This document shows, piece by piece, positions 1,192-58,200 of a stretch of 64,000 nucleotides of DNA. Under the pieces are notes generated by a model. The model saw nothing but the letters and a program-made list of their open reading frames with translations. It made no database searches and had not been told where the DNA came from. The stretch is from Cladochytrium replicatum (Eukaryota > Chytridiomycota > Chytridiomycetes > Cladochytriales > Cladochytriaceae), in NCBI GenBank assembly GCA_025526935.1, contig JAHLKD010000027.1:372001-436000 (forward strand), written 5' to 3'. Within the stretch, counting starts at the first letter, position 1. The number at the start of each line of letters is the position of its first letter. The position numbers and the translations under genes are program-made.

Positions 1192-4100
1192 CTACTTCCT
1201 GGAACCATTTGCACTTCTCCCACTTCCTCGTTTCCTAGTTGCTCCTTTCCGCTCCTTTCCGTAAGAATGCTGACTATTACTAACTTCGTCAAACATTCCC
1301 ATCATGGGAATACCCATCAAGCCTGTCCCAAAATCTAATGAACCCCCACCGTCACTTTCCTCGTCATCAGCTGTTGTAGATTTTTTGGCTTTTGGAATGC
1401 TGACACCATGCTCCACAACTTCTTCTTCACTCCCCGAAGTGTAGTCTGAATTAGCTTCTGCTTGAACTGGATTTGATTCAGGTTGATCTTTTGAATCCGG
1501 ATTGGTAACTGTTCCATTTTCATAAGGTTTTGGTTTCACCCACAAGAGTTTTGTGATGTTGACAGTGAACAAGCTCCGAGTGTTATCATCTGAATTTTCG
1601 GGCGTACTCTTCTTAACTTCCAGCCCTGACTCTGTCCAATGAATCTGAGACCATCTTATATCTTCAAGAATGATCTCCTTAGAGGGTTCAGAATACTGTA
1701 TGCTTTGAGAAATCTTCAGCTCTGCAATAGAATATCGGTCTTTGGTTGTTGCAGGGTCACTTGTCAGAACCAACTCAAACCTTACCAGCAAGCAATAATA
1801 TATTTTAGAACAAGAATAACTCACAATATGTAAACCCTACCTCTGTGGTCTATTTCCGTTTTCAAACCAGAGCTTATCCTGTCGAATTCTGACACGCCAA
1901 AAACTCCAAAACTGCATTTTCAGCAAATCTGACCTTGAGAATCCTGCTGCGGCTTCCCCTCTTTGAATGGCCTTCTCAACAGCATCAACTGCAAGCTTAT
2001 CAATCTCATTGCTCTTCTCCTTCACTTCTTTTTCGCCTTCAATTGATGCAGATGGTGCTGCAGGGAGTGGTGGTATTGAATATGTTGCAAGTGCATCAAC
2101 GAAAAGGTATGACAGATGCGGAGGCCATTCAGTCATCAGCGATGGTCGGTATTTGAGGCTGCATCGACAAGAAATGTTGAGACGCCTAAAACCATTTTGC
2201 TTTGGAAATGTTACTCACCAAAGAGTACCATCAAGATCTGAGAAGGTAACTGTGACACTCTCCCGAACAGTTTTGAGTGGCAAAACTTCACGTTTCTCAA
2301 TGACAACTATCTCCTCGTCAACCTCCTCCATGCTGCTGCTTGAATCATCCTGCAACGCCTCCATGCGTGTGACCATCTCCAGTTTCTTCTGGAATGTTGT
2401 GTGCGGCAGACTCTCATTACTCTCAGCATATTCGCTATCCAAATTTGATTCCTGGACCTTGGTCACGGCTGTCTCAAGTTTGATCTCTTCGCTGGACTCT
2501 CCTTCCTCCAAAATTTCTGATTCATCCGAGTCATCGCCATCAATGTCCACATGTACATCTTCATCGTCCTCATCGTCGACATTGTCCATGTCTGGATTGT
2601 CCCTCACAATCGGCACTCTCCTCCGCTTCCGCACTCGCCTTATCCCCTCCACCCAAAGTATGCTCTCATCTCTCCCGATTCCCCAACGTTCGGTCTGTCT
2701 CTTCCTTCCCTGCATATCCACTTTTCTCGACACCTCAGCAATGGTTTCGATCCGAATGCTTTCGCCATCGTGGGATGTTCCCCATCCCCGAGACGTGATG
2801 CCATAGCGATAGCAACCAGTGTAGCGGAACAGGCGTGGAAGAATGCGCAGCGTCACGACGAGATCCTGGGGAGGATACTTTGAAACCACCTCTGGTTTAT
2901 TGCGGCCGGGTGGCGTAGAGCTCTCTTGCGTTGGATAATCGTACGGCTGGTAACGACCTGCGTGTATGATTGCTGCACAAACATTCAGCGACAATGTTCT
3001 TTGAAATTGGATCTGTAAACTCACTTGCAACAATGTCCGAATCATCGGTGTAAATGTCCGTCCCCCACACAGCGCACGCTTCCACCGCGAGGTTCCCTCG
3101 CCACGTCAAGAACCTTCCCGGGACACGAACTTCGATTGTACCAAACAGATCATCGGAGCTGAACCTTGGGAGAACCCAAAGGTTCAGATCTTCAACCTCA
3201 AGCCTACCTGTCCGGCGAGTATTGAGCTTCGGCCCGCCGTAAACTAAAGACCCCAGAAATCGCTTGGTTTCAGGGATGGAAGTCAGCCGGTCATCTGTGG
3301 TCACAGGACATTCTCCCTTTTTCGCGTTCTTCCTTGCCTCCGCCGCGCATTCACGCAGCTTAGGGTTCAACGCGTGGACGGGTCGCCTCCAGAACTGAAT
3401 GTCGTGGCTCCTCGCCGACGTAGCATTTTGGATTGTCGAGGGTGCAGATGGGAGACCCGAAGTTTGGTTTGCCCGTTTCCGCTTGTTGGATTTCATGTCA
3501 GATCGATTTTTGATGCGCTGGATAATGTCTAGGACTTCCTGATCCGGCGGTGCTGGTGACGGTGCCGGTTTCGTCTCGTACGGTTTCGGAGCTTCGGCTG
3601 GGTGATGGTGGGGTGATCGCTGATTTGGAAGCACGGATCGGAAGTTGCGAGATGAAGGCTCAAACCCATCGTCCGATCCTTCTTCATGGTCCGCTTTCAA
3701 GCCGTGCATAGCACCGAAATTTGGTGGTGGGCCGCGCTGTGGATAGTTGTAACTCTCAGCGTACAGTCGCTTCTGTTGGAGATAATAAGCGCCATCGATA
3801 GGACCATCGTGGCTAGAAGGCTGAGGACGGTGGAATCTACGAGGGCCAGGAACATCTCTCAAGTGATCTGACAATGGCGGGAGCTGTGTAGTAGTCGATC
3901 GACCCATTGGAGACGGTGATGGGGCAACTTGGTGGAGCGGAGGAGGGAATGCACTTCGACTGGAAGGATAATTCAAATGGCTCCTAAAATAATCGTATCT
4001 GGGATCCTCGCGGACGCCAAGCGGAGGTGTAGTTGAAGCCGAGTGTGGAAAGTTTGGCGACCCGACATCGTGTGGCATTACTACACGGTCTGGACGATAT

Positions 4101-4804
4101 CCCGTATTCCAGCCAAGTTCATCGTACGTCCCGGGTGAATTGGAATAGGCGATTCGGGGGTCGACATTTGATCTTTTCTCGTCAATGGCTCCCGCCATTT
4201 CAGAACTATGCATACGTGGCCTCATAAAAAGAGATTCGTCGATAGAGGGAAGCTGAGGTCGAGATAAGTACCCTTCCGCACTCGATCCTGGTAGCGGCCG
4301 TTGTGCGCCAGACGCGGCACGCTGCATTTCGGAAGAGAGGGGATTGGTGTGCTGTCCTGATTGCGTCATACCAGATTCTTCGTACTCAGGACGGCGCGCA
4401 TACATGGGATGGCTGGGCGAAGTACCCTCTGATGGATACCAATCACCGCGAGATCTAAGCTGCGCAAGCGACGGTAAGTTGGCTTGGATCCCTGAGTTCA
4501 ATGATTCTCGCGACGAAGAATGATGGTCGCTAAGTGGTGGCATGCTGCGACGAGCCTGAGCTCCATCGTTTGTTGCTCTTGGCTGCAGAGGGGGCGACCC
4601 CACACTCCGTGGCTGAACTTGATTAGTCGTGGTGTTCTCAACGGACGCTGCAGTGTTCTGATCTGATTGAGGAGTAGATGTGCCACCTGAATTGGCGTAC
4701 TGGCGTATGTACGGCGCACCAGGGAATGCCATCGCGTCCATCATCTTTGAGAATGGTGAGTGAGCTCTAGTACGGTTTTGTTCACCCTCTGGGTTGTGCG
4801 ACAT
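1192..4804 (-). CDS. Rxt3-like histone deacetylase complex subunit
   Basis: Four exons read on the minus strand: 4804-3025, 2972-2219, 2158-1841 and 1780-1192, giving about 1146 residues. The first ~430 residues are low-complexity, rich in Ser, Pro and Gln. The conserved core spans exons 1-2 and holds an LGSLVYGGP segment, a VRVPGRFL strand and the family hallmark WGTDIYTDDSD followed, after the first intron, by an IIHAG motif. In Rxt3 proteins this core serves the Rpd3L histone deacetylase complex, so a nuclear co-repressor role is inferred. A long acidic Asp/Glu tract follows, and the C-terminus is basic. The reading across intron 1 restores the family motif exactly, which supports that splice choice. 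Much longer than yeast Rxt3; the extra length is mostly disordered sequence. The family call rests on the core motif only. Confidence 0.75.
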
Positions 4805-5296
4805 GACACTAACAGGACCGAGCGCTGAACTATCCGGTAGTAAATTTCGATGGCTCTAAGGCCCCAAGGTTAGAACGTTGGGTTGACTCTCTCCCTACAC
4901 ACCGCGATCCGATCCGTGTGTTTGCGATGGTGCGTGGCTCAGTGGGGCTGGTTCTGGATTCGATTATTCGCGAGTATGGGTGGGAATAATCTCGAGCTGG
5001 CCGAGAACGGAGGTGCTCAAAGGCCAATGTCGTCGGCAAAGAGACCGGAAAACTCTCAGAGCACAGCAAACTTTCGCGTCACAGTAGAAACCACCGCAGC
5101 TGGGCCCGCTCCTGAAACTTTCATTACCCAAAGGGCTGGGAAATTGTGCGTTGGATCATGATCTCATCCACACTCAATCGTAATAAAACTACCTTAGAAT
5201 TCAAGTTCCTGTTGCCAAAAATGAGGTACATCAGCTCCCGTGCAGATCGATATAACACTGGCAGGCTGAACGCTTTCGGCACACCAGTCTTCGTCC
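4805..5296. promoter_or_regulatory. Shared upstream region of two divergent genes
   Basis: 492 bp between the Rxt3-like start codon (minus strand) and the CCDC42-like start codon (plus strand). No long coding frame with family similarity is present, so it presumably contains both promoters and 5' leaders. No individual element could be assigned. Confidence 0.4.
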
Positions 5297-20337: not shown

Positions 20338-20677
20338 TGTGAGGGATTTTCGTCACGTGGACAAATTGGTGCAAGAAGTAAAGTTGAAAAGAAATATTGC
20401 AGTAAATATTGAGATAACAGAAACTAAACAGAACAAGTGAAAACATTCAACCTTATAGAAGAAGATGTGGAAAATTGCAGAAGAAAACAAACAGTAAGTA
20501 TTCATGTAAAACATAAAACATTTCTCAAAGCAAATATTTCCAGATAAGAAAACATTGCAGAACGGTAAGAAAACAAAAGACAACGAAGTAACACAAGATG
20601 TTTCGAATGCTGAAACATTATCCAAAAAGGTAATAATCATTTCTGTCAGGTGACACGTGTTGACCAAAACTCTTGCA
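20338..20677 (-). mobile_element. Solo LTR with 5-bp target duplication
   Basis: A 340-bp LTR beginning TG and ending CA, related along its length to the LTR at 24928-25282 (shared block CACGTGGACA near one end and GGTAATAAT...CAGGTGACAC near the other). It is flanked directly by GTTGG at 20333-20337 and GTTGG at 20678-20682, a perfect 5-bp target-site duplication. No internal element remains, so it is most simply a solo LTR left by LTR-LTR recombination. Orientation assigned by comparison with the coding element nearby. Confidence 0.8.
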
Positions 20678-20681
20678 GTTG

Positions 20682-20863
20682 GCTTCGAGAAATGTTTTAA
20701 GAATGTTATATTTGATTATATACTGTTTGTGTTCTTACGCAATTTTTCCACTTGTTCTTTATAAGTTTGAATGTTTCCTCTTGGTCTGTTAAAGTGGAAA
20801 AATTGCGTAAGAACACAAACAGTATATAATCAAATATAACATTCTTAAAACATTTCTCGAAGC
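20682..20863. repeat. 72-bp-arm perfect inverted repeat
   Basis: Arm 20682-20753 is the exact reverse complement of 20792-20863, with a 38-bp spacer at 20754-20791. The spacer and inner arms are LTR sequence (they match the region at about 25040-25100 in inverted orientation), so the left half of this LTR has been replaced by an inverted copy. The DNA could extrude a long cruciform. Confidence 0.85.
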
Positions 20864-20999
20864 AAGTATTTCCAAATAAGAAATCATGGCAGAACAGTAA
20901 GACAATGAAGTAAAACAAGATGTTTCGAATGCTGAAACATTATCCAAAAAAGGTAATAATCATTTCTGTCAGGTGACACGTGTTGACCAAACTCTTACA
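20792..20999 (-). mobile_element. Partial LTR adjoining the inverted repeat
   Basis: Matches the distal part of the 24928-25282 LTR and ends in the same CTCTTACA terminus. Its other half is missing and replaced by the inverted arm at 20682-20753. The pentamer GGTGG (21000-21004) separates it from the next LTR. Confidence 0.7.
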
Positions 21000-21004
21000 G
21001 GTGG

Positions 21005-21160
21005 TGAAAGGGATACTTCGCCACGTGGACAGATCCGTGCACTCGCTTTTGGGTCGCGATTGTTCAAGAAGGTAAGTTGTGAAGAAATATCACATAAATT
21101 ATTGAGATAACAGAAACTAAACAGAATAAGAGGAAACATTCAAACTTATAAAGAACAAGT
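21005..21160 (-). repeat. Truncated 3' LTR of the Ty3 element
   Basis: 156 bp that align to the first part of the 24928-25282 LTR with only a handful of differences, then break into internal element sequence after AAGAACAAGT. About 200 bp of the LTR is missing together with the end of integrase. Confidence 0.8.
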
Positions 21161-21179
21161 AAGCAGAGAATTCGGCATC

Positions 21180-23730
21180 AATCTTCGAGCTACAGGGGGC
21201 AATAACTAGGAACTTAGTAGCCTTTTCTACAAATACCATGGCATCGTAAGTGCCAATAGGAGGAAGAGCGGTAACTACATCCATAGTCCAAGTTCCAAAT
21301 GGTGGATCGGACGGAATAGGCTGGAGAAGACCGGCAGGAGCTTGTCGAGCAAGTTTTTGTCGTTGGCATACTTCGCAGGTACGTGTATAGCGTCGAACCC
21401 ATTTTGTAATACCAGGCCAATAGAAGTCACGTAGAATTAGTTCGAGAGTCTCACTGATCCGAAATGGCCAGCCAAGGGAGAATCGTGTCGGTATTCGAGA
21501 ATACGGAATCGAAGAGTATCGGTAGGGACAACAATGAGTCCATCCTTGGTAAGTACAAGATTGTTCTTCTGTGTGAAGTTTGTTTTCTTAAGGAGAGTTT
21601 CCTTCAGTTCGGCATTGTCGGGGGAGCTCCAAGCTTCGACTATGTCATCAATAAGTTTTGGTTTCGGGGGTTGAGGATCAACGGAATCAGAATCGTCAGA
21701 AATTTCGAGTTCGGCGAAATCGACTGGAACAGAAGGTAAGAGCTGTTTGGTTAGTTCAGTTGTGAAACTATCCCCTCCTAACGAGAAGTCGCTCCGGCGA
21801 CTTAAAGCGTCAGCGTTGCCGTTAGAAGTGCCTGGACGATACTGAATTTCGAAACGAAAGTCGGCAAGAAGAGAAGCCCAACGAGCTTGTCGGCGATTGA
21901 GGACACGCTTCGTGGCCAAAATATCGAAGATTGTTATGGTCCGAGCGAACAGTGAATGAGGTGAGTGGAAGTAAAAGAGCGCGGAAATGATCCAAAGAAT
22001 CAACAATCGCTAATAATTCCTTATCGTGCGTATCGTAGTTGGCTTCGGCAGGAGTGAACTGACGAGAATGAAAGCCAGCCAACCGGATGATGAAGACCAT
22101 CGTCATGAAGTTGCGAAACGACACCAGCAAGAGCGAAGTCACTAGTATCGGTATCGACAATGGTCAGCAGAGCGGGATCAAAATGACGGAGAAAGGGAGC
22201 AGAGGTAAAGAGGGCCTTCAGTAGATTAAAAGCATTCTGACAAGGATCGGTCCATTCAAAGGAAACTGATTTGCGAAGGAGCGTAGTGAGCGGGCGAGCA
22301 ACATGAGCGAAGTTTCGAATGAAACGGCGATAATAATTGCAGAATCCAAGGAACGATTGAAGTTGCTTAACTGAGGTAGGTGTAGGCCAGTCGCGAACTG
22401 CGGCAAGTTTGCGATTATCCATTTTAACACCTTGGGCAGAGAACCAGTGGCCAAGGAAGTCAATCTCTTCAACAAAGAAAGAGCATTTCTTCGGATTGAG
22501 AGGGACGGCATGCTTATGCAGAGAAGTAAGAACGGCTCTGACGTGATCAACGTGAGTAAAGAAATCTTCGGAGTAGATCAGGATGTTGTCTAAATAAACA
22601 ACAACGTAGCGGTCGAGGTGATCTTTCAAGATATCGTTCATGAAGTGCTGGAATGCAGCGGGAGCGTTGGTAAGTCCATAGGGAACAACAAGGTACTCGA
22701 ATAACCCAAAACGACAGCGGAAGGCAGTTTTCCACTCATCGCCTTGACGGATGCGAAGAAGATGGTAGGCATTAGGGAGATCAAGCTGTGTGAACCAACG
22801 GGCATAACGCAAACAGATAACCATGTCAGAAAACAACAAAGGTATGGGATACCGATTCTTGATCGTTATTGTATTTAAACGGCGATAGTCAACAGCGGGC
22901 CAAATTCCACCATTCTCTTTCGGAACGAAGAAAATAGGGGCAGCCATCGGAGAAGTCGAGGGTCGAATCCAACCACGGCGGAGAGCATCATCAATATACT
23001 TTCGTAGCTCTTCGTGTTCGTGATCGTTCAAAGTGTAGATGGGAGACAATGGAGGAAGAGGTTTCCCCGGTTCAAGGTCGACAGGGCAATCGTAGGTACG
23101 ATGTAACGGAATTGTAGGATTTGCTGAAAGTTCGTCTTTCGTAGCAAAAACATCAGAGAAGTTGTCGAGAATCAGAGGGACACCACGATCGTCAACAGGA
23201 ACGGTCGTTGAAGCATGGTCCTTCGTAAGAACAATGGTAGCAAAAGAGAGCGGAGACGAATTTAACGGAATTGCATCTCGAACATAAACATCAAGAAGGG
23301 GGTCGTTGAAGAAGTGTTCAAAGAAGAGGGAGTCGAGATCGGAGTCAACAGAAGAAGGAAGAGGTGTGGAAGAAACACAATGCAATTTGCAGAAATCGCC
23401 ATAGAAGAAAATTTGCTTTGTAACCCAGTTGATTTGCGGGTTATGTTCTTCGAGCCAGGCGAGAGGCAGAACGAGATCGTGTTTTGATTCGAAAATGCGG
23501 AAAGTCTTTTTCTCAATGTGAGTACCAAAAGCAAGCATAAGGGGTTCAGTTTCGAACTCAACAGGATAAGCAACATAGGTGCCATCACCAAGTCGAACTT
23601 TGAGAGGAGATTCGGTGGGTTGAGGATTCAAAAGAAGTTTTTCAACGATTCGAGGATGAAGAAGATAATCGGTGCAGCCAGTATCAAGGAAAGCAACAAA
23701 GATTGGTTCGAGAGTTCTCTGAAAACAAGG
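21180..23730 (-). pseudogene. Frameshifted Pol (PR-RT-RNaseH-IN)
   Basis: Protease has the DTG active site (FVAFLDTGCTDYLLHP, about 23690). Reverse transcriptase is mostly intact in 23631-22021, with an FFVPKENGG segment and a YLDNILIYS box in place of YLDD. RNase H (TPAEANYDTHDKELLAIVD) and the HHCC-bearing integrase (LRDFYWPGITKWVRRYTRTC, then TMDVV) lie in other frames, so at least three frameshifts are present (near 22075, 21930 and 21465). Integrase stops after its first catalytic aspartate region because of the deletion into the LTR. Confidence 0.85.
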
Positions 23731-23826
23731 TAACAGTGAAAGTAAAATGTTTCTGGGGATGCAGGGAAAGAATACTGATCTGAATATCTTTGTCCGATTT
23801 GATTTGCACCAGAGAGCCGGACTCGT

Positions 23827-24819
23827 TCAGTGGTGCTTCGCGTTTCCCGACGACAAAGAAGATGCAGCGGTCGTAGTCGTTTGTGAACTACCAGAGGAAT
23901 CACCGTCGCGACGTTTCGGGCGCTTAGGGCATTCGTGGACGAGGTGACCAGATTCGCGGCAGTAGAAGCACTTGCCGGCTTTGCGGAGCTCTTCGCGTTC
24001 GGTAGCGGTAAGTTTTCGGGATTGAGTTTGCATGTTGTCTAAATCCATCGGAGTAGGGCCGGAAGAATAAGAAGATTGAGGATTCTGTCGAGATCTGGAG
24101 TTGGAATTCGTATCGCGAGTTGGTTGTCTGCCCTTGCTATGGTCAAACAAATCTTGATCGATTTCAACAGAACGAGCTTGGTAGTCAGCAAGATTTTTAA
24201 AGTGAGAGCGAGGGAAGGGCATCAGTAATTCGCGAACTTTGTCTTTTAACCCATCTTTGAATAGGCGGTACAGAGCGTCCTCGTTGTATCCAGATTCGGC
24301 GGCGAGTTTCGAGAATTCGGAGAGATATGCAGAAGTCGAGCCAGTCTGGCGGAGAGTTTCAAGCTTTCGCTGGGCATTAAGCTTTCGATTGTCTTCACCA
24401 AAGACTTGCAAGATTTCGTATCGAAGCATGGCCCATGAGAGTCCAAAGCCTGCGTTGCGTCGTTGTTCACAGTAAGAGTAAATCCAACCGCAGGCATTTC
24501 CAATAGTCCAAGCTTTAACCGCAATGATCTTGATTTCGTCCGTAGGGTACCGTAACGGTTCCGCGGCGAACTTGTCGTCGATCTGCGTCAAGAAGAGTCG
24601 AGTCTTGTTTCGATGACCCGAGAAACATTCGGGATCCTTGATCTTGACCTTGGAAGAGGTCACAATCTTGGTGTTTTCAAGTTCAGAGATGCGTTTTTCG
24701 AGTGAGAGAATGTACGCTTCCATAGTTGGCTGAGGTTCTTGGGTAGCATCCGTGACAATTTGTTGCTGAGCGTCCAACGGTGCTCTGGAAGTGTTGCCCA
24801 TGTCCATCGGGGTTGCCAT
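23827..24819 (-). CDS. Retrotransposon Gag with CCHC knuckle
   Basis: An open frame of 330 residues reading from the first ATG after the LTR. Residues ~75-235 form a capsid-like retrotrans_gag region (WTIGNACGWIYS, KLETLRQTGS, LFKDGLKDKVRELL). A CX2CX4HX4C zinc knuckle (CFYCRESGHLVHEC) lies near residue 285, followed by a Ser/Thr-rich tail. It packages element RNA. The downstream protease frame is reached only after a stop codon and a frame change. Confidence 0.85.
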   Translation of the reverse strand: MATPMDMGNTSRAPLDAQQQIVTDATQEPQPTMEAYILSLEKRISELENTKIVTSSKVKIKDPECFSGHRNKTRLFLTQIDDKFAAEPLRYPTDEIKIIAVKAWTIGNACGWIYSYCEQRRNAGFGLSWAMLRYEILQVFGEDNRKLNAQRKLETLRQTGSTSAYLSEFSKLAAESGYNEDALYRLFKDGLKDKVRELLMPFPRSHFKNLADYQARSVEIDQDLFDHSKGRQPTRDTNSNSRSRQNPQSSYSSGPTPMDLDNMQTQSRKLTATEREELRKAGKCFYCRESGHLVHECPKRPKRRDGDSSGSSQTTTTAASSLSSGNAKHH

Positions 24820-24913
24820 GGCAAATCAGGTAAGTTCAGAAGAGTTCGAGAGTAACAAGAGTTCACAGAGGGTCACAAAACCAAACGTTTAGCGGAGGAG
24901 TGCAGAGATCAGG

Positions 24914-24925
24914 AGTTTCTGTTAT
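24914..24925 (-). other. Self-priming-type primer binding site
   Basis: Two bases inside the 5' LTR, the element-sense sequence ATAACAGAAACT is exactly complementary to AGTTTCTGTTAT in the LTR (25038-25027), the predicted first bases of the transcript. It shows no obvious match to a tRNA 3' end. The layout parallels Tf1/sushi elements, which prime reverse transcription from their own 5' RNA end. Confidence 0.6.
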
Positions 24926-24927
24926 GC

Positions 24928-25282
24928 TGAAAGGGATACTCCGCCACGTGGACAGATCGATGCACTCGCGTTTGGGTCGAGATTGTTCAAGGTAAGTTGT
25001 GAAGAAATATCACATAAATTATTGAGATAACAGAAACTTAACAGAATAAGAGGAAACATTCAAACTTATAAAGAACAAGTGGAAAAATTCGGAAGAAAAG
25101 AAGTGGTAACTAATCAAGTAAAACATTCTTAAAATGTTTCTCAAAACAAATATTTCCAAATAAGAAATCATGGCAAAAAGGTAGACAAAGAAGTAAAACA
25201 AGATGTTTCGAATGCTGAAACATTATCCAAAAAAGGTAATAATCAATTTTGTCAGGTGACCCATGTGGACCAAACTCTTACA
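24928..25282 (-). repeat. 5' LTR of the Ty3 element, complete
   Basis: 355 bp, TG...CA ends on the plus strand. In the element's sense it contains a TATAAG box about 32 nt before AGTTTCTGTTAT (complement of 25038-25027), a plausible transcription start. Followed on the outside by GGTGG. Confidence 0.8.
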
Positions 25283-25347
25283 GGTGGTTTACTGAGGTGG
25301 CTTACTGAGGTGGCTTACTGAGTTGGATTACTGAGTTGGCTTACTGA
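25283..25347 (+). repeat. 13-bp minisatellite, five copies
   Basis: Five tandem units of the type GGTGGCTTACTGA with single-base variants (GGTGG or GTTGG heads). The first unit begins with the target duplication of the Ty3 element, so the retrotransposon sits exactly at the repeat edge. Confidence 0.8.
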
Positions 25348-25569
25348 TTGATCTCATGGATGACCACGCAAGTAGGAACAAAGATTCATTGTCTGATTGA
25401 AGTACTGTTTAGTAATCATGGTAATACTTTTTCCTAAAACAATGTGCTCGTGCCATATAACCCTTTATGGGAATTTCTAAATGCAGTAATGAATTTGCTG
25501 TGCATTTGACTGCGCATGGATCTTGGCTGATCCGATTGCACTCCACCAAGCAACAGAACTTATTTACCA

Positions 25570-28441: not shown

Positions 28442-28673
28442 GTGCAAGGACGATCGGACACGTGACACAAACTTTGGCTGGACAAAGGTAACAGGGGAGC
28501 CAGGGGAGAGATCAGAGCATACTGCACGGACGGATCACAGAGAGTCGTACCTACACACTGGCTCACGCCTCAACAGTCATTTTCAAAAGTGATATGATTT
28601 TTAACGCTCATCACAATCCCCAAACAATAAAACGATTGTTATTGCTTCCCATCCGTCGGTTAGCAGCTGAGAT

Positions 28674-31517
28674 ATGAGCACTGGAGTGTCAATTTCGGAA
28701 CATCGTGGAAGACCAGGGCAGCGAGAGACACAGGCTTCACACACTTTAAACCAATTGCCAAACATCCCACTGTATAATAACCACTCCAATCAACCATCGT
28801 CGACACCATCCTGGAGATCAAAGAAAGCTCCTTCATCTTGGTTCAAAGTATCCACGACAAATTTGGACGATTCTGAAATGGCCTCCCGTGGGAAGCAGAG
28901 GAATAGAAGCAAATCGAATGAGTCCAAAAACAGCGCTTTCGCACTTCATCAGGCTCAACGGAGCTCAACTGCAGCACTTTCAGCCGTAAGTATATCGCAG
29001 ATATACCGCACAAGGGACATTGGGAGTGCAAACACTGGTGAGGGCAGAGTTATGAGATCGGCAATGGAGCTTAGCACGAGTTCAAACCTGGGATTTGGGG
29101 GTCCTCATACGTTTTCAGGAAGACCATCGAGGCCACAATCTGAGAACGGGTCGCTTCTTTCCAGGACAATTCGAGAGAGGATGCGGGAAATGGGAAATCC
29201 TCTGCGTGGGCCAGTTTTGACGCAAATGGCTGTACACTACATCTACTTTGCAGTGCTGATGGCATTGGCATATGCGCTTGGGTGGGCTCCAAATATTCGT
29301 GTCTACTCCTCTATTCTGTGGGCGAACATGTCGTTCTTCTCGATTCAGATATCCCGACTGTACCTTGAAGCGAATCCAATGAGCCTGGCACCATTTTACA
29401 TATCATTTTTTCCCTTTGGATTCCTCATTATTATATCGAGAGAAGCCCATATTATCGTGATGGTGATGTGGTACGTTTCCATCCTGGTGATCTTCTTGCA
29501 ACTGGGCCACCATGAGCTCCAAAGACACATCTTCATCTATTCCATTCTGTTCCTGGGACTATACTGCGCTTGTGTAGTCTTCATGCTGTACTTCTATGGA
29601 TCGACAAACAATTTCTTCTCTGGAGTTGAACTCTCCCCTCCGATAAGGTTCGACCAGGAAATAGTCTTTGTCGTTGGTTGCGCGGCGGTCATGGGGGCCA
29701 TTTTCCAGCTCGAGCACTTTGTTAAACTCAACGCCATCACACTTCTTGATCGGGAAAGCTACATGAATCAACTATACGTCGCCAACATCGATCTGAGACG
29801 TCAACTTCGTAAAGCCAAAAGCGACAAGGAGGTAGACCTTGAAGCCCCACTATCGCGCGCACAGGAGATCCTTAAGGACGTCAAATCTAGTCCTGAAATA
29901 GATGAGTTGTCAGCTAAAGAGCTTGAGATGATCGTTGAAATTCTCGCATCGGATCAGCTCTACAGCGTCAACCTGCGGGAACAACCTGCGGACGCGGATG
30001 TTCAAGATTGGCTGAGCAACATGTTGATGAATCAGGAACACAAGTTCCCTACTCTACCTGGGTCGATCAAAACGTCCGGCTCGCTCAGTTCTATGGATTC
30101 AACTGCCGTCGTAACAGCTTCGAACACAGCAGCAAACTCGGGAATCAGCACCCCATGGATCAAAAAGAATGGCTTTCTCACATCGGACGAGACTGCCATA
30201 TTCACACTTCTCGACAACGTTGAGGATATACAGTTTGACATTTTCGAGTTGGACAGAATGTCAAATCACAGACCACTCCACTACATATCCTGGTATCTCT
30301 TCCGTAAACACGACCTTTTCGAAAAGTTCAAGATCCCTGAGGCTAAGTTTCGGCATTGGATCACAAAGGTGGAGCAAGGGTACAAACCAACCAACCCATA
30401 TCACAACAGCGTCCACGCAGCAGACGTGACCCATTCAATGCACTTCTACGTCACTCGCCCGCGGCTCTGGGACCGCCTAAGCAGTGAGGAACGCCTCGCG
30501 ACTCTCATCGCGCCAATCATCCACGATTACATGCACCCAGGCGTCAACAACGCCTTCCTTATCTCAACAATGAACCCCCTCTCTCTCCGCTACAACGACC
30601 AGTCCGTCCTCGAGCACTTCCATTGCGCCTCGGTGTTCGAGCTCATGTCCCGCGAAGAGTACAACATCCTCGCATCGATGACCCCAGATTGTCGAAAGCA
30701 GGTGCGCGATCTGGTCATATCCATGGTGCTAGCCACGGACATGGCGATGCATTTCGAGTGGATCGGAAAGTTTAAGAACAAGTTGAACGGGCCGGGTTTC
30801 AATTTCGATATCCGAGCGGATCGGAAGCTGGTCTTGAACATGGCGATCAAGTGCTCGGACGTGAACAACCCTGCGAAACGGCTGGATCAGTGCAAGAAGT
30901 GGACAGAGCTGATCATGGAAGAGTTTTTTGCCCAGGGCGATGAGGAGAGGAGGAGGGGCGTGCCGGTGTCGATGTTTATGAACCGAGAGACAACGGATAT
31001 TCCAAAGTGCCAAATCGTGAGTTTTTTTCCCCACCAGAATGTATTGTCTGGTTTGAGTTACCTGACCGTCGCGAACATTCAGGGATTCATCGAGTTCATC
31101 GTTCAGCCACTCTTCGAGGCATGGTCTGGCTTCATGCAGGAAGATGCAGCGATCGTCATGGCAAACATCCAAAATAACAAACAGTACTGGAAGACTAAGG
31201 CAGAACGACAAGTGTCTGTAGTCGTGCCACCAACGATATCAAGAGCAATGAAAAACACGACGAGCGAATCAGCAGCAGAGGAAGTCGCCACAGTCAATAC
31301 CAAACTGAGTTCACAACAAAACCGTGCCGCCCCAAGTTCCGGCTCGAGAGCTATATCACTAGCATCAGAACTGGACCAGAGTAAACCTGAGCTTCCGCCG
31401 TCTCAATTCGATCGACCACCAGGACAAAAGCCAGTCGTGGATGTTCCTTCTGGGCCATCCCTGCTGGCAACGTCACTGTCCGTGGCGACCACACCAGGGA
31501 TAAGGAATCAAAGATGA
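28674..31517 (+). CDS. Membrane 3',5'-cyclic nucleotide phosphodiesterase
   Basis: Two exons, 28674-31016 and 31083-31517, about 925 residues. The 66-nt intron (31017-31082) is in frame and easy to miss: removing it joins PKCQI to GFIEFIVQPLFEAW, the normal family sequence. Residues ~180-365 hold roughly six hydrophobic segments, so the enzyme is polytopic. The class I catalytic domain (about 515-800) has the metal-binding signature HNSVHAADVTHS, then HDYMHPGVNN and KCSDVNNPAKR, with the glutamine and phenylalanine of the nucleotide pocket in CQI...GFIEF. Hydrolyses cAMP and/or cGMP; specificity cannot be read here. The Ser/Pro-rich ends are probably disordered. GC-rich coding sequence stands out from the surrounding relic DNA. 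Confidence 0.93.
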   Translation: MSTGVSISEHRGRPGQRETQASHTLNQLPNIPLYNNHSNQPSSTPSWRSKKAPSSWFKVSTTNLDDSEMASRGKQRNRSKSNESKNSAFALHQAQRSSTAALSAVSISQIYRTRDIGSANTGEGRVMRSAMELSTSSNLGFGGPHTFSGRPSRPQSENGSLLSRTIRERMREMGNPLRGPVLTQMAVHYIYFAVLMALAYALGWAPNIRVYSSILWANMSFFSIQISRLYLEANPMSLAPFYISFFPFGFLIIISREAHIIVMVMWYVSILVIFLQLGHHELQRHIFIYSILFLGLYCACVVFMLYFYGSTNNFFSGVELSPPIRFDQEIVFVVGCAAVMGAIFQLEHFVKLNAITLLDRESYMNQLYVANIDLRRQLRKAKSDKEVDLEAPLSRAQEILKDVKSSPEIDELSAKELEMIVEILASDQLYSVNLREQPADADVQDWLSNMLMNQEHKFPTLPGSIKTSGSLSSMDSTAVVTASNTAANSGISTPWIKKNGFLTSDETAIFTLLDNVEDIQFDIFELDRMSNHRPLHYISWYLFRKHDLFEKFKIPEAKFRHWITKVEQGYKPTNPYHNSVHAADVTHSMHFYVTRPRLWDRLSSEERLATLIAPIIHDYMHPGVNNAFLISTMNPLSLRYNDQSVLEHFHCASVFELMSREEYNILASMTPDCRKQVRDLVISMVLATDMAMHFEWIGKFKNKLNGPGFNFDIRADRKLVLNMAIKCSDVNNPAKRLDQCKKWTELIMEEFFAQGDEERRRGVPVSMFMNRETTDIPKCQIVSFFPHQNVLSGLSYLTVANIQGFIEFIVQPLFEAWSGFMQEDAAIVMANIQNNKQYWKTKAERQVSVVVPPTISRAMKNTTSESAAEEVATVNTKLSSQQNRAAPSSGSRAISLASELDQSKPELPPSQFDRPPGQKPVVDVPSGPSLLATSLSVATTPGIRNQR

Positions 31518-39104: not shown

Positions 39105-40290
39105 TTGCAAGTTTCAGCGCCATCTGCCTCTCCCGCTTGTTTCACCCAAGGCATCTCTCCAAGCTCTCAAACCCGCCCGCGCTCTGGTCTTCGCCCGAGC
39201 ACGCCGTCGGAACCGCTTATCGACACGCAAGCACTTGAATCGAGTCTCCCTGAAGCTGCACCATGTGATGACCTTCAAAGACGCCAATTCTGTTGCGCGG
39301 GAATGTGGCGGCAACAAGATGCGCAAATCCATGTGTCGGGAAGGATTATGTGTCGGAATGAGAGCGTGTGCGGGCAGATCGGGGTGACCAGGATCGCAGA
39401 CGCGTCGGGATGGACGATCGTGAGGTCCTTTTCATTTCTGTACAGCTCGAGCTGCGAGACGTACGGCGACGTTCCACTGTCGACAACGAGGTCGTTGAGG
39501 ATGTGGTACGTTCGGCCGTGGTTGCTGTATTCGAGCTTTCGTTTCCCGCGATAAGACCGAGGGCGCGGGAGTTACGACCGTCATTGCGACGGTGGACAGT
39601 TCACGCGAATCGAAGGGCGGAAGTTGCCGTTATGGTTGCCCTGCAAGATTCTGGTAATACTGCTTCGGAACTTGGTGAACTCAAACACGGTGAGGAAATC
39701 GAGCGACCCAAGATGGAAGGAATGATCGGAGGAACCTATTGTCATATTGTTGTCCTGCAAGATTCTGGTAATGCTGCTTCGGAACTTGGTGAACTCAAAA
39801 ACGGTGAGGAAACCGAGCGACCCAAGATGGAAGGAGTGATCGGAGGAACCTATTGTTGGAATAACTATGCAGCGAAAAGTACGGTTCTATCACCACCCAA
39901 TGTGATCTGGAGTCGAACAATACTCAGTGTCCCAGAAACGGAGCTGGCTTCCGCTGCTGCTTGCATCACTCGACACGTTACTGTTAAGTCGGTGTGAGTT
40001 GAAAGTTGCCGAGGTTGCCGTCGAGGTAGACTCGGGCTCAAGGCAACTCGATAACTGGTGTTGGAAGTGATCGGCGTGGATAAAGATTGCCGTTGTGGGA
40101 GTCTCAGGGTATGCGCTGAAGCCATATCTGAGCCAGCGGGAGAGGCTGCACGTTCGAGGTCAGCGAAGGTAATTGTGTTTTTAGCAGTCAGAGAATCCGG
40201 GAATCCGTTGATACCAGAGATGTGTAATCGAACGCTGGATGGTCCTCCACAAGACTGGTCAAAATCAATGTGCAATTCGGGACTGATCAA
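39105..40290 (-). pseudogene. NAD kinase pseudogene
   Basis: Minus-strand pieces follow the order of a fungal NAD kinase: ITLGGDRTVLFA (the GGDGT ATP-binding motif with Gly changed to Arg), VPPI(I/T)PSILG, then LNDLVVDSGTSPYVSQLELY, ILVTPICPHTLSFR and a tail VPTACSGEDQ...FESLERCLG. Stops interrupt it (for example just after VLFAA and in the tail), and the GSTAYSLSAGG-type block between the LELY and ILVTP segments is deleted. A 114-bp tandem duplication repeats the VPPI region. Function (NADP synthesis) is certainly lost at this copy. Confidence 0.75.
39636..39863 (+). repeat. 114-bp tandem duplication
   Basis: Two units (39636-39749 and 39750-39863) differing at only a few positions, inside the NAD kinase relic. 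The length is a multiple of three. Confidence 0.85.
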
Positions 40291-55232: not shown

Positions 55233-58200
55233 TTATGCACCCTGCTCTTTATCCGGCGCCTTTTCGGCCGCCACCTTCCGCCCCAGCGGACCTTTGTCAG
55301 GCCTGAGCAGTTCCACCCACTTCGCATACTCATCCTCCTTCCTAAAGTCAATCAACAACGAGCACCCTTGCTCTCCGACCATATCCGCGGTATTGCTCAT
55401 TTGGTTGCTCGACATGGTCACCGCATTAGGTGTGGACGATAGCATGCTGTTCGCGCCTGCTGAGTTTGTGATCGAGTTCCCGCCGTTGGCGTTGGGCTGG
55501 TAGAGTCCAATCGTGAAGAGCTTCCTACTAGTGTCCGCACGGGTGTAGCCCAGTTTCCAGTATCGAAGGTTAATCACAGTTCCTGTGTTGAGAGTCGACG
55601 AGTTTGCATCGAAAAGGAGAATGAGATGGTCATCGTAGAATACGCCGACTTTGGACTGCCACGCTGCGAGGAGTCCCTTCTTGAAAAGCACCGAGATCAC
55701 ATTGTTCGTTTTTCCAAAGCCTTTGTTCTGTTATGAAAGTTCAACATCTTCGCGAATATATGCAGCATTTCTTTGTCCTACCATTTCGGCCTTCGCTTTC
55801 GCGGCTCGGTTACCCATGGTAGTCATACCACCAAAGTTTGTCCTGACCGCCATCCCGATCCCAGTTGAATGCGAATGTGATCCTGAATCCGAGGTCGAAT
55901 TCGTTTCCACAGGGTCCCTCCACGCATCGAAAAATAGACGTTTCCCGAACAACATTCCAAAGCCGAATGCGTTGGGATACACCAACAGCACCACTTTAAA
56001 CCAGAACTTGACATTGTAGTCCGCGATGACGGACGCCATGAGAAGTGGCACGAGGACCGCAATCGTGACGACGGCATTATAAACCGAGTACCCAATCTGA
56101 GTTGTTTCTGAGAAGAGGTCGCGGACGTTCCGGGTCAGGAAGGCAACAGCGGCAGCGATGAGCAGGAGAACGGCATTGAAAGCATAGAATAGGCCGAGAA
56201 TAATGGAGTCAACTTGGGGGCGGTCAGAGGCGCAAACGTAGAACTGGTCGATTGAGTTGGTGATGAAGGCGAGTTGGGGTCGCTTTGGCGCCGCGGCGGT
56301 CCATGCAATCGCGAGAATCTGAAGCAGTGTGCGTTAAACAGTGATCTACTTAAAAATTTGTGCTTCGTGAGCTACCAAGTTCGGAAGGACGAGTGCACCA
56401 ACACCAATTAGAAGTTCAGTATTTGGAATGGCCATTTTGACACGAGTCGAGTTGGCAAAGATCCTTCGGAGCAAGAGTGAGGGTAAGATTTCAGTTCAAC
56501 TCCAATCTCGTAGAGTGTAATCATAAATACCTGTAGACTCTGTAGTTTTTCACCAAGATGCATCCAACCACAATGCCATAGGAACAAGGCACAATAAACG
56601 TCTCCACCGCGCACTTCCACTCCGTTGGCTCTCCGATGTCAATCAGTGCCACCAGATCGAGTCCGAGCATACCCGCAAGGATAAAGTACACAAACACTGG
56701 GCTCATCGCCTTCACAACCGGATGCGCACCTTTCACCGCGATGATCACCATGCCTGCCACGATCGCAAGACCAACAAACAACACGATTCCAAGTACCGCA
56801 CCTCCGCTGCCTGATGACCACGGCGTGGTGAAGATAACGCCTGTCGTGGGTGGGACGACTTTGAGGTCGCAGACGGGCCAGACGATGTCGCCGAACGGGA
56901 AATTGCGGAGATCGGTGGGGCCGGTGACGACTGTCGCAGATACGGATGACGTAGTGCAGTTGACGTAGCGGAAGTCCAAGGCGTCGGGGGTCATGAGTGT
57001 GCCGGTCATGACGAAAGGGAAGGGATACTTTGAGGCGTTTCGGTTGGGAATGACGAGGCGGTTCCCGAAGGGATATTGGCCTGTCTGAAGGTAGATTGTT
57101 TGGAGTGCGATTGGCAGGTAGCCTTGAGCGTACTCTTGTTGGAGGACGGTGTATTGTTGCTGGTGGTTGATCATCGCTATGCGTGCCGTAAGCAAAAGCT
57201 GTTTTGTTAGGAGATGCTTTTAAGTAGGACTCACCTTCAACAACGCACGTTGAGCTGTCAAAAGATCCCATGGCAACGTTGGTACCTTGTCCCGTTGGGA
57301 TACCCAATGACTGGAAGACACCGAGAATCCTGTCAGTAGGTGCGTTAGATACATTGCAAGTGACTTGTTCCACGCAAAGTTCAATCATACCAACACGTAG
57401 AACCGGACTCTTGAACTATCCACCGTGTCGATTTCGGGAAGAACGAAACAACACTGCTTATCTTCTGTGCTGCAGCGATCGAATTACTCGACAAAACTCC
57501 GAGGTAGGTTGCATTGACCCCAGTCCCTGACAAAACACCAAGGAATCCTGAACAACGAACGCTTTCTCCTAACGTTGGCGCATCCGTATCCGTACACAGC
57601 GCCTGTGTCGCGAGCGGGTTCTCCTTCAAAAGCTGCTGCGCAAGGTTGGCGCCTGCCACGCCCTCATCGTTTCCAATGAATGCTAGCATGTCGCTAAAGT
57701 TTCCTTGCACATTGGCGAAACCAGAGCCCGAGTTGACTCCCACGATCGGGATCTTTTTGTCCCTTGCAGGGATCAACACGGGGACAAACAAAGCTTGTCG
57801 TGAAAGCGAGACAATCCAGCCCGCACTTTTGACAGGGTCGTTGTTGTTTGTGACGTTGGCAATGAAGCTCGCTGCGCCGACACCGTCGGTGACTTCTGTG
57901 ACCATCTCGATGGTGGACACTCCAGAGTCGACTTCGCCTCTGTAGATACCGGAGCGCCAGTTGGTCCAGAAGCCAGAAGCACGACGGGCGTGGGAGGCGA
58001 CAGTGAAGAAGGCAGATGTGCGGTTGACAGGGAAAGCGCCGTCGGGGAATCCGGCATCGCGGGCGTTGACGTAGGCGTTGAATCCGGACATGAGGTTTTG
58101 GGCTTTCAGTGAGGCGGATTGGTAAACTACCGGCCCTGTCCACAGGTGTGTGTTGTCGACCTTTGTGTAGCGGTATTTGAAACTAAAACCATGTTTCTCA

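Follow-up and report, generated by a model that had tools for sequence, protein, structure and literature searches.

How does the LTR retrotransposon at this locus begin its reverse transcription? Most Ty3/gypsy elements use a tRNA as the primer, and self-priming of the Tf1 type is known from yeast and fish elements. An earlier note on this DNA had proposed the second mode. We analysed the window, a stretch of 64,000 nucleotides of the Cladochytrium replicatum genome, together with the related copies in the rest of the assembly. In our reading, the element in the window is a chromodomain Ty3/gypsy element (chromovirus), present as a defective copy, and its family very probably primes reverse transcription with its own RNA, as Tf1 does.

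A complementary pair at the 5' LTR

The primer-binding site (PBS), ATAACAGAAACT, and its exact complement, AGTTTCTGTTAT, are both read on the minus strand, and the complement lies inside the 5' LTR (Table 1). It had been claimed that the 12 bases just inside the LTR match a site within it exactly. This is indeed so, with the detail that the PBS does not start directly at the LTR end but 2 nt inside, the two bases GC separating them. The LTR site had also been placed about 32 nt after a TATAAG box, and we counted 32 nt from the first T of the box to the A of AGTTTCTGTTAT. The 12-mer occurs four times in the window, both strands included, against 0.01 expected; two of these occurrences are the primer and the PBS themselves and the other two lie in neighbouring LTR fragments. 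Searched genome-wide with at most one mismatch, AGTTTCTGTTATCTC was found 65 times, versus 9 times for the reversed pattern.

Table 1. Features of the element copy in the window, positions counted from the first letter of the window
Feature	Position	Strand	Basis or remark
TATA box, TATAAG	25065-25070	-	sequence; -31 to -26 relative to the predicted start; 91-100% identity per base in the LTR alignments
5' LTR, 355 nt, TGTAAGAG...CCCTTTCA	24928-25282	-	edges from other copies and target duplications
Predicted RNA 5' end and self-primer, AGTTTCTGTTAT, RNA nt 1-12	25027-25038	-	exact complement of the PBS
Possible U5-IR-like left arm, GATATTTCTTCAC, RNA nt 28-40	24999-25011	-	shuffles as good: narrow test 8/1000, broad test 227/500
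Possible third ('pretzel') duplex, U5 arm, CCAAACG/GAGTGCA/GATC, RNA nt 64-84	24955-24975	-	shuffles as good: narrow test 2/1000, broad test 77/500
Possible U5-IR-like right arm, GTGGCGGAGTATC, RNA nt 92-104	24935-24947	-	conservation below the mean of the LTR
Primer-binding site, ATAACAGAAACT, RNA nt 114-125	24914-24925	-	2 nt inside the LTR end
Possible third-duplex arm just downstream of the PBS, GATC/TGCACTC/CGTTTGG	24881-24911	-	duplex tests
gag ORF with Retrotrans_gag and CCHC zinc knuckle	23827-24825	-	ATG at 24819
GGGAAAC heptamer, phased for putative -1 slippage from gag to pol	23842-23848	-	
Remains of pol with RT, RNase H, a weak match to protease and the first part of the integrase	21160-23826	-	frameshifted; continues as an LTR fragment
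LTR-fragment mosaic with one inverted piece, 3' end of element	20381-21160	-	

LTR copies in the genome and conservation of the primer

At least 46 matches to the window LTR were found in the genome (50.5 Mb, 198 contigs), a number that includes pieces of single copies. Complete copies span TGTAAG...TTTCA, and several are flanked by 5-bp target duplications (ACCGT, GTGGG, GGTTC, GCACC, GATTC, ATTTG and TTTAG); a duplication was also looked for at L011, L016 and L017 and none was seen there. For five elements the two LTRs were compared, with differences of 1.7 to 3.6%. Where the 3' end of a copy is intact, a purine-rich AAGGGGAGAATGA precedes the 3' LTR.

The conservation of the primer block was measured in alignments to the window LTR, the fragments in the window included. 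The block is covered by 41 of them and is exact in 24, carries one mismatch in 15, four mismatches in one and an indel in another. Among the 28 alignments of less than 90% identity, the block is 95.8% identical, versus a mean of 85.3% for the LTR, which ranks it 17th of 346 windows along the LTR; across all 48 alignments the values are 96.0% and 90.5%, and the rank is 48th of 346. Conservation is highest at the LTR ends, in the stretch past the TATA box and around the left U5-IR arm. In the older set, two other arms are below the 85.3% mean, namely the right U5-IR arm with 77% and the third-duplex arm in U5 with 80%. Nine 5' ends of the main family include the inside flank, and the PBS is exact in seven of these, altered by one change in L009 and lost in L038. 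When each copy's own primer was compared with its own PBS in ten copies, including the diverged L077 and L086, the pairing was perfect in five and had one change in the other five; L038, which has lost most of its PBS, was left out of this count.

Two observations concern the surroundings of the LTRs. Copies L012, L019/L020, L026, L027 and L028, whose identity to the LTR of the window is 83 to 96%, share a short target of the form ...TGGCATTTAG-LTR-TTTAGTGG...; the right flank is TTTGGTGG in L028, and that of L027 was not seen. Either one position of a dispersed repeat was hit repeatedly, or repeats bearing the LTR were copied along with it. In the window, short imperfect tandem repeats resembling CAGTAAGCCACCT (minus strand) occupy positions 25283-25350, directly upstream of the 5' LTR.

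Diverged sister families and a tRNA-type family

A genome-wide search with the PBS alone, allowing up to three mismatches, gave 13 places, among them L077, L086 and three uninformative ones. L077 (C52) had been found by a pattern requiring both exact 12-mers and was recovered again by the PBS alone; L086 (C35) was found by the PBS search. Their LTRs are far from that of the window: L077 is 75.8% identical over 99 nt and L086 77.9% over 68 nt, in both cases mainly in the TATA/R region, and the RT-RNase H of L077 is 52% identical to that of L010, a main-family copy. In both families GC and ATAACAGAAACT follow directly after the LTR, and the distance from TATAA to AGTTTCTGTTAT is 31 nt in L077 and 33 nt in L086. 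Because both families were found by way of the PBS, only the primer at the right distance from the TATA box counts as independent evidence in them. We found no compensatory change in primer and PBS, in searches that were seeded with this 12-mer and therefore blind to families with another pair, which makes the search for such change a weak one.

Several other loci were set aside. At L088 (C53:296093) a PBS with three mismatches has no recognisable LTR, primer or TATA box alongside and was taken as a chance match. L085 and L087 each have a PBS with one mismatch beside LTRs that lack the primer region, and were uninformative. Among the loci with an SH3_Tf2-1 domain, L074 and L075 gave no LTR pair at an E-value of 1e-8, and L076 is cut by the end of its contig.

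As a control we used the chromodomain family L073/L078 of the same genome, which has a chromodomain, SH3_Tf2-1 and two overlapping ORFs, as in the window family. Its LTR of 470 nt is followed by GGTGGTGGTTTCATCCAGGACC, a TGG-type (tRNA-type) PBS, and its longest self-complement is 6 nt. With a PBS of this type and no self-complement above 6 nt in this family, the signal seen in the window is not universal among the chromodomain elements of the genome. The control family is very abundant, with about 40 places in the genome at 99-100% identity, and the pol ORF of L073 encodes 1643 aa; its primer-site pattern was found at 131 places with at most one mismatch, the family's own copies included.

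Predicted folding of the leader RNA

The leader of Tf1 is described, in the accessible part of PMC10085805, as three duplexes, one between primer and PBS and two between U5 and the sequence flanking the PBS. The earlier note had suggested folding the leader with its PBS. In the 149-nt leader of the window copy, primer and PBS do form a helix in the minimum free energy structure, but the stability of the entire leader was no better than chance (z -1.34, with 21 of 200 shuffles as good).

Two helper duplexes beside the PBS are predicted and may form (Table 1). They were tested twice, at first with all of U5 and mononucleotide shuffles (500 each), and then with narrower segments, chosen after the first look, and dinucleotide shuffles (1000 each). 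In the broad test, the number of shuffles as good as the third duplex was 156 for L010, 30 for L012, 69 for L023 and 343 for L034, and for the U5-IR-like duplex 55 to 283 of the 500 shuffles were as good; the helper duplexes were without support in the main family in this test. For the third duplex of the sister families the corresponding numbers were 0 of 500 (L077) and 2 of 500 (L086). In the narrow test the third duplex was equalled by 2 of 1000 shuffles in L012, as in the window, by 432 in L034, none in L077 and 32 in L086. The U5-IR-like duplex was equalled by 4 of 1000 in L012, and was without support in L034 (389), L077 (294) and L086 (882). Unlike the broad test, the narrow one thus favoured both helper duplexes in the main family, L034 excepted.

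The third duplex of L077 is built from different letters, AACAAACGUC with GACGUUUGUU. When the arms were exchanged between families, the family's own third duplex was the best in the window, L012, L023 and L077, and not in L086 and L034, of which U5 pairs better with the downstream arm of L077 than with the own arm. Similarly, the right U5-IR arm of L077 pairs better with the left arm of the main family. In these predictions the third duplex appears strong in L077 and plausible elsewhere, and the U5-IR duplex is only a possibility.

A broader idea may be formulated from the three families, although we regard it as rather doubtful. At least three long-diverged families would have kept one 12-nt primer/PBS pair, and next to the PBS the helper duplex would have changed its sequence and still pair, so that RT/RNase H may read the primer by its sequence and the helper by its shape only; a self-priming lineage would then coexist with a tRNA-primed chromodomain lineage. 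The idea is weakened by the facts that the families were found via the same PBS and that, for the main family, the outcome of the duplex test varies with the choice of segments.

Coding region and state of the window copy

The window copy is dead: its pol is frameshifted and the integrase is truncated, running into an LTR fragment at position 21160. The protease match of pol is below the Pfam cut-off. Integrase, a Tf2-1-like SH3 domain and a chromodomain are present in L010 and other copies; in L010 the chromodomain (PF00385, E-value 1.6e-9) lies in an ORF separate from the pol ORF, and it is absent from the truncated copy of the window. The family has the hallmarks of Ty3/gypsy elements, namely LTRs of the form TG...CA, a short target duplication, a polypurine tract and the order gag-PR-RT-RH-IN.

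In L010, gag and pol overlap in the -1 frame, as read from the ORF coordinates. A -1 overlap around GGGAAAC was seen in the window, L009, L011 and L077. The heptamer is also present at the junction in L012, where the frames beyond it are disturbed, and L010 is without it; GGGAAAC was found elsewhere in pol as well. We regard a -1 gag-pol frameshift at this junction as putative.

Elsewhere in the window there is a gene for a cyclic nucleotide phosphodiesterase (PDEase_I, 28671-31517), closest in the PDB to PDE4-type enzymes, a fragment of a class C GPCR (55731-56333), a match to Rxt3 just below the Pfam cut-off (2897-4855) and two near-tandem direct repeats of 112 nt that are 95% identical (39631-39856). 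The phosphodiesterase gene, the GPCR fragment and the Rxt3 match tentatively point to a fungus of an early-diverging lineage, perhaps a chytrid, as the host.

How is reverse transcription primed?

The Tf1/sushi-type geometry that had been suggested for this locus is supported by the complementary pair, by its position (the primer at the predicted 5' end of the RNA, the PBS 2 nt inward of the LTR), by its conservation, and by its presence in two diverged families. We infer the transcript start, the RNase H cleavage and the extension by analogy with Tf1. Transcription would start at A25038, and nucleotides 1-12 of the RNA (AGUUUCUGUUAU) would anneal to the PBS, which begins 2 nt inward of the 5' LTR; additional pairing of U5 with the sequence flanking the PBS would probably help. 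The element's RNase H would cut after nucleotide 12, and the freed 3' OH would prime minus-strand synthesis.

If a tRNA were the primer instead, the PBS would be complementary to the 3' end of a tRNA or to an internally cut tRNA, and its match to the LTR would be a coincidence. The abundant control family of the same genome does have a TGG-type PBS. However, no tRNA-like primer site is visible by eye in the window element, as had been noticed before, and TGG is absent from the first 44 nt inside its LTR. The earlier note had also raised the matter of a tRNA that matches the PBS better. Among the tRNAs found by ARAGORN that were compared (23 distinct, 30 of the 62 listed loci, and six amino acids only, Thr, Cys, Met, Val, Lys and Gln) there was none, the best match of the 12-mer being 7 of 12 positions over the whole tRNA sequences and 5 of 12 at their CCA ends. 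The LTR complement is, moreover, also present in L077 and L086, and we consider priming by a tRNA improbable.

It is also conceivable that the two 12-mers pair for another purpose, for example as a switch within the leader that serves packaging or translation, priming being left to something else; what the evidence demonstrates is a potential for pairing, not priming. Yet the pairing stops precisely 2 nt inward of the LTR, at the place from which minus-strand synthesis has to start, it begins where the TATA-directed transcript should start, and no other primer site was recognised, which makes such a role very unlikely. As for chance, 2 of 5000 dinucleotide-shuffled LTRs contained a complementary stretch 12 nt or longer (offsets 0-6), so that a chance origin is unlikely. 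The recurrence in L077 and L086 reflects descent, and partly also the way in which both were found. Even so, L086, a family to which the PBS by itself had led, retains primer and TATA spacing, as do most of the old solo LTRs, and we hold a purely accidental complement to be extremely unlikely. Self-priming as in Tf1 remains our preferred explanation.

Comparison with known systems

The family described here is very probably a new example of a mechanism already known from yeast and fish elements, and leaves that mechanism unchanged. It would add a self-priming family (46 LTR matches, some of them pieces) and, from the same genome, at least two diverged sister families, a set in which the Tf1 leader structure could be tested by comparison. 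The coexistence with a tRNA-type chromodomain family is relevant to the timing and the number of origins of self-priming in chromoviruses. No description of self-priming in a chytrid element was found in the open-licence literature searched, as far as its accessible parts go.

According to the accessible sections of PMC2864245, chromodomain Gypsy elements of the Tcn1 clade are reported from basidiomycetes and the chytrid Batrachochytrium, and SM-Tcn1, a copy from a spikemoss, showed no sign of priming by a tRNA or by itself. Most plant Tcn1 elements are predicted to be self-priming (PMC6317226, accessible part). The window family resembles Tcn1-clade elements in being of the chromodomain Gypsy type, a likeness drawn from descriptions. 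The Tf1/sushi group, as outlined in the available portions of PMC6317226 and PMC10085805, includes marY1, MAGGY, Cgret, skippy, Tcn1 and sushi-ichi, with self-priming as a common trait; -1 frameshifting predominates in Tf1/sushi elements outside fission yeasts (PMC10085805, same portions). The window family has a chromodomain like these elements, again by description and not by sequence. Its chromodomain, CCHC gag and apparent -1 gag-pol overlap agree with the Tf1/sushi group as characterised in the accessible text of PMC10085805.

The closest relative with a solved structure is Ty3, in a comparison set that holds no Tf1/sushi sequences. With Tf1 and Tf2 of Schizosaccharomyces pombe, the window family shares a PBS just inside the 5' LTR that complements the predicted RNA 5' end, a chromodomain together with a Tf2-1-like SH3 domain (Pfam PF24626), and a leader that may form more duplexes beside the PBS. 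Unlike in Tf1 and Tf2, its Gag has a CCHC zinc knuckle and its gag and pol overlap in the -1 frame. The self-primer complement is 12 nt long in the window family, compared with 11 nt in Tf1.
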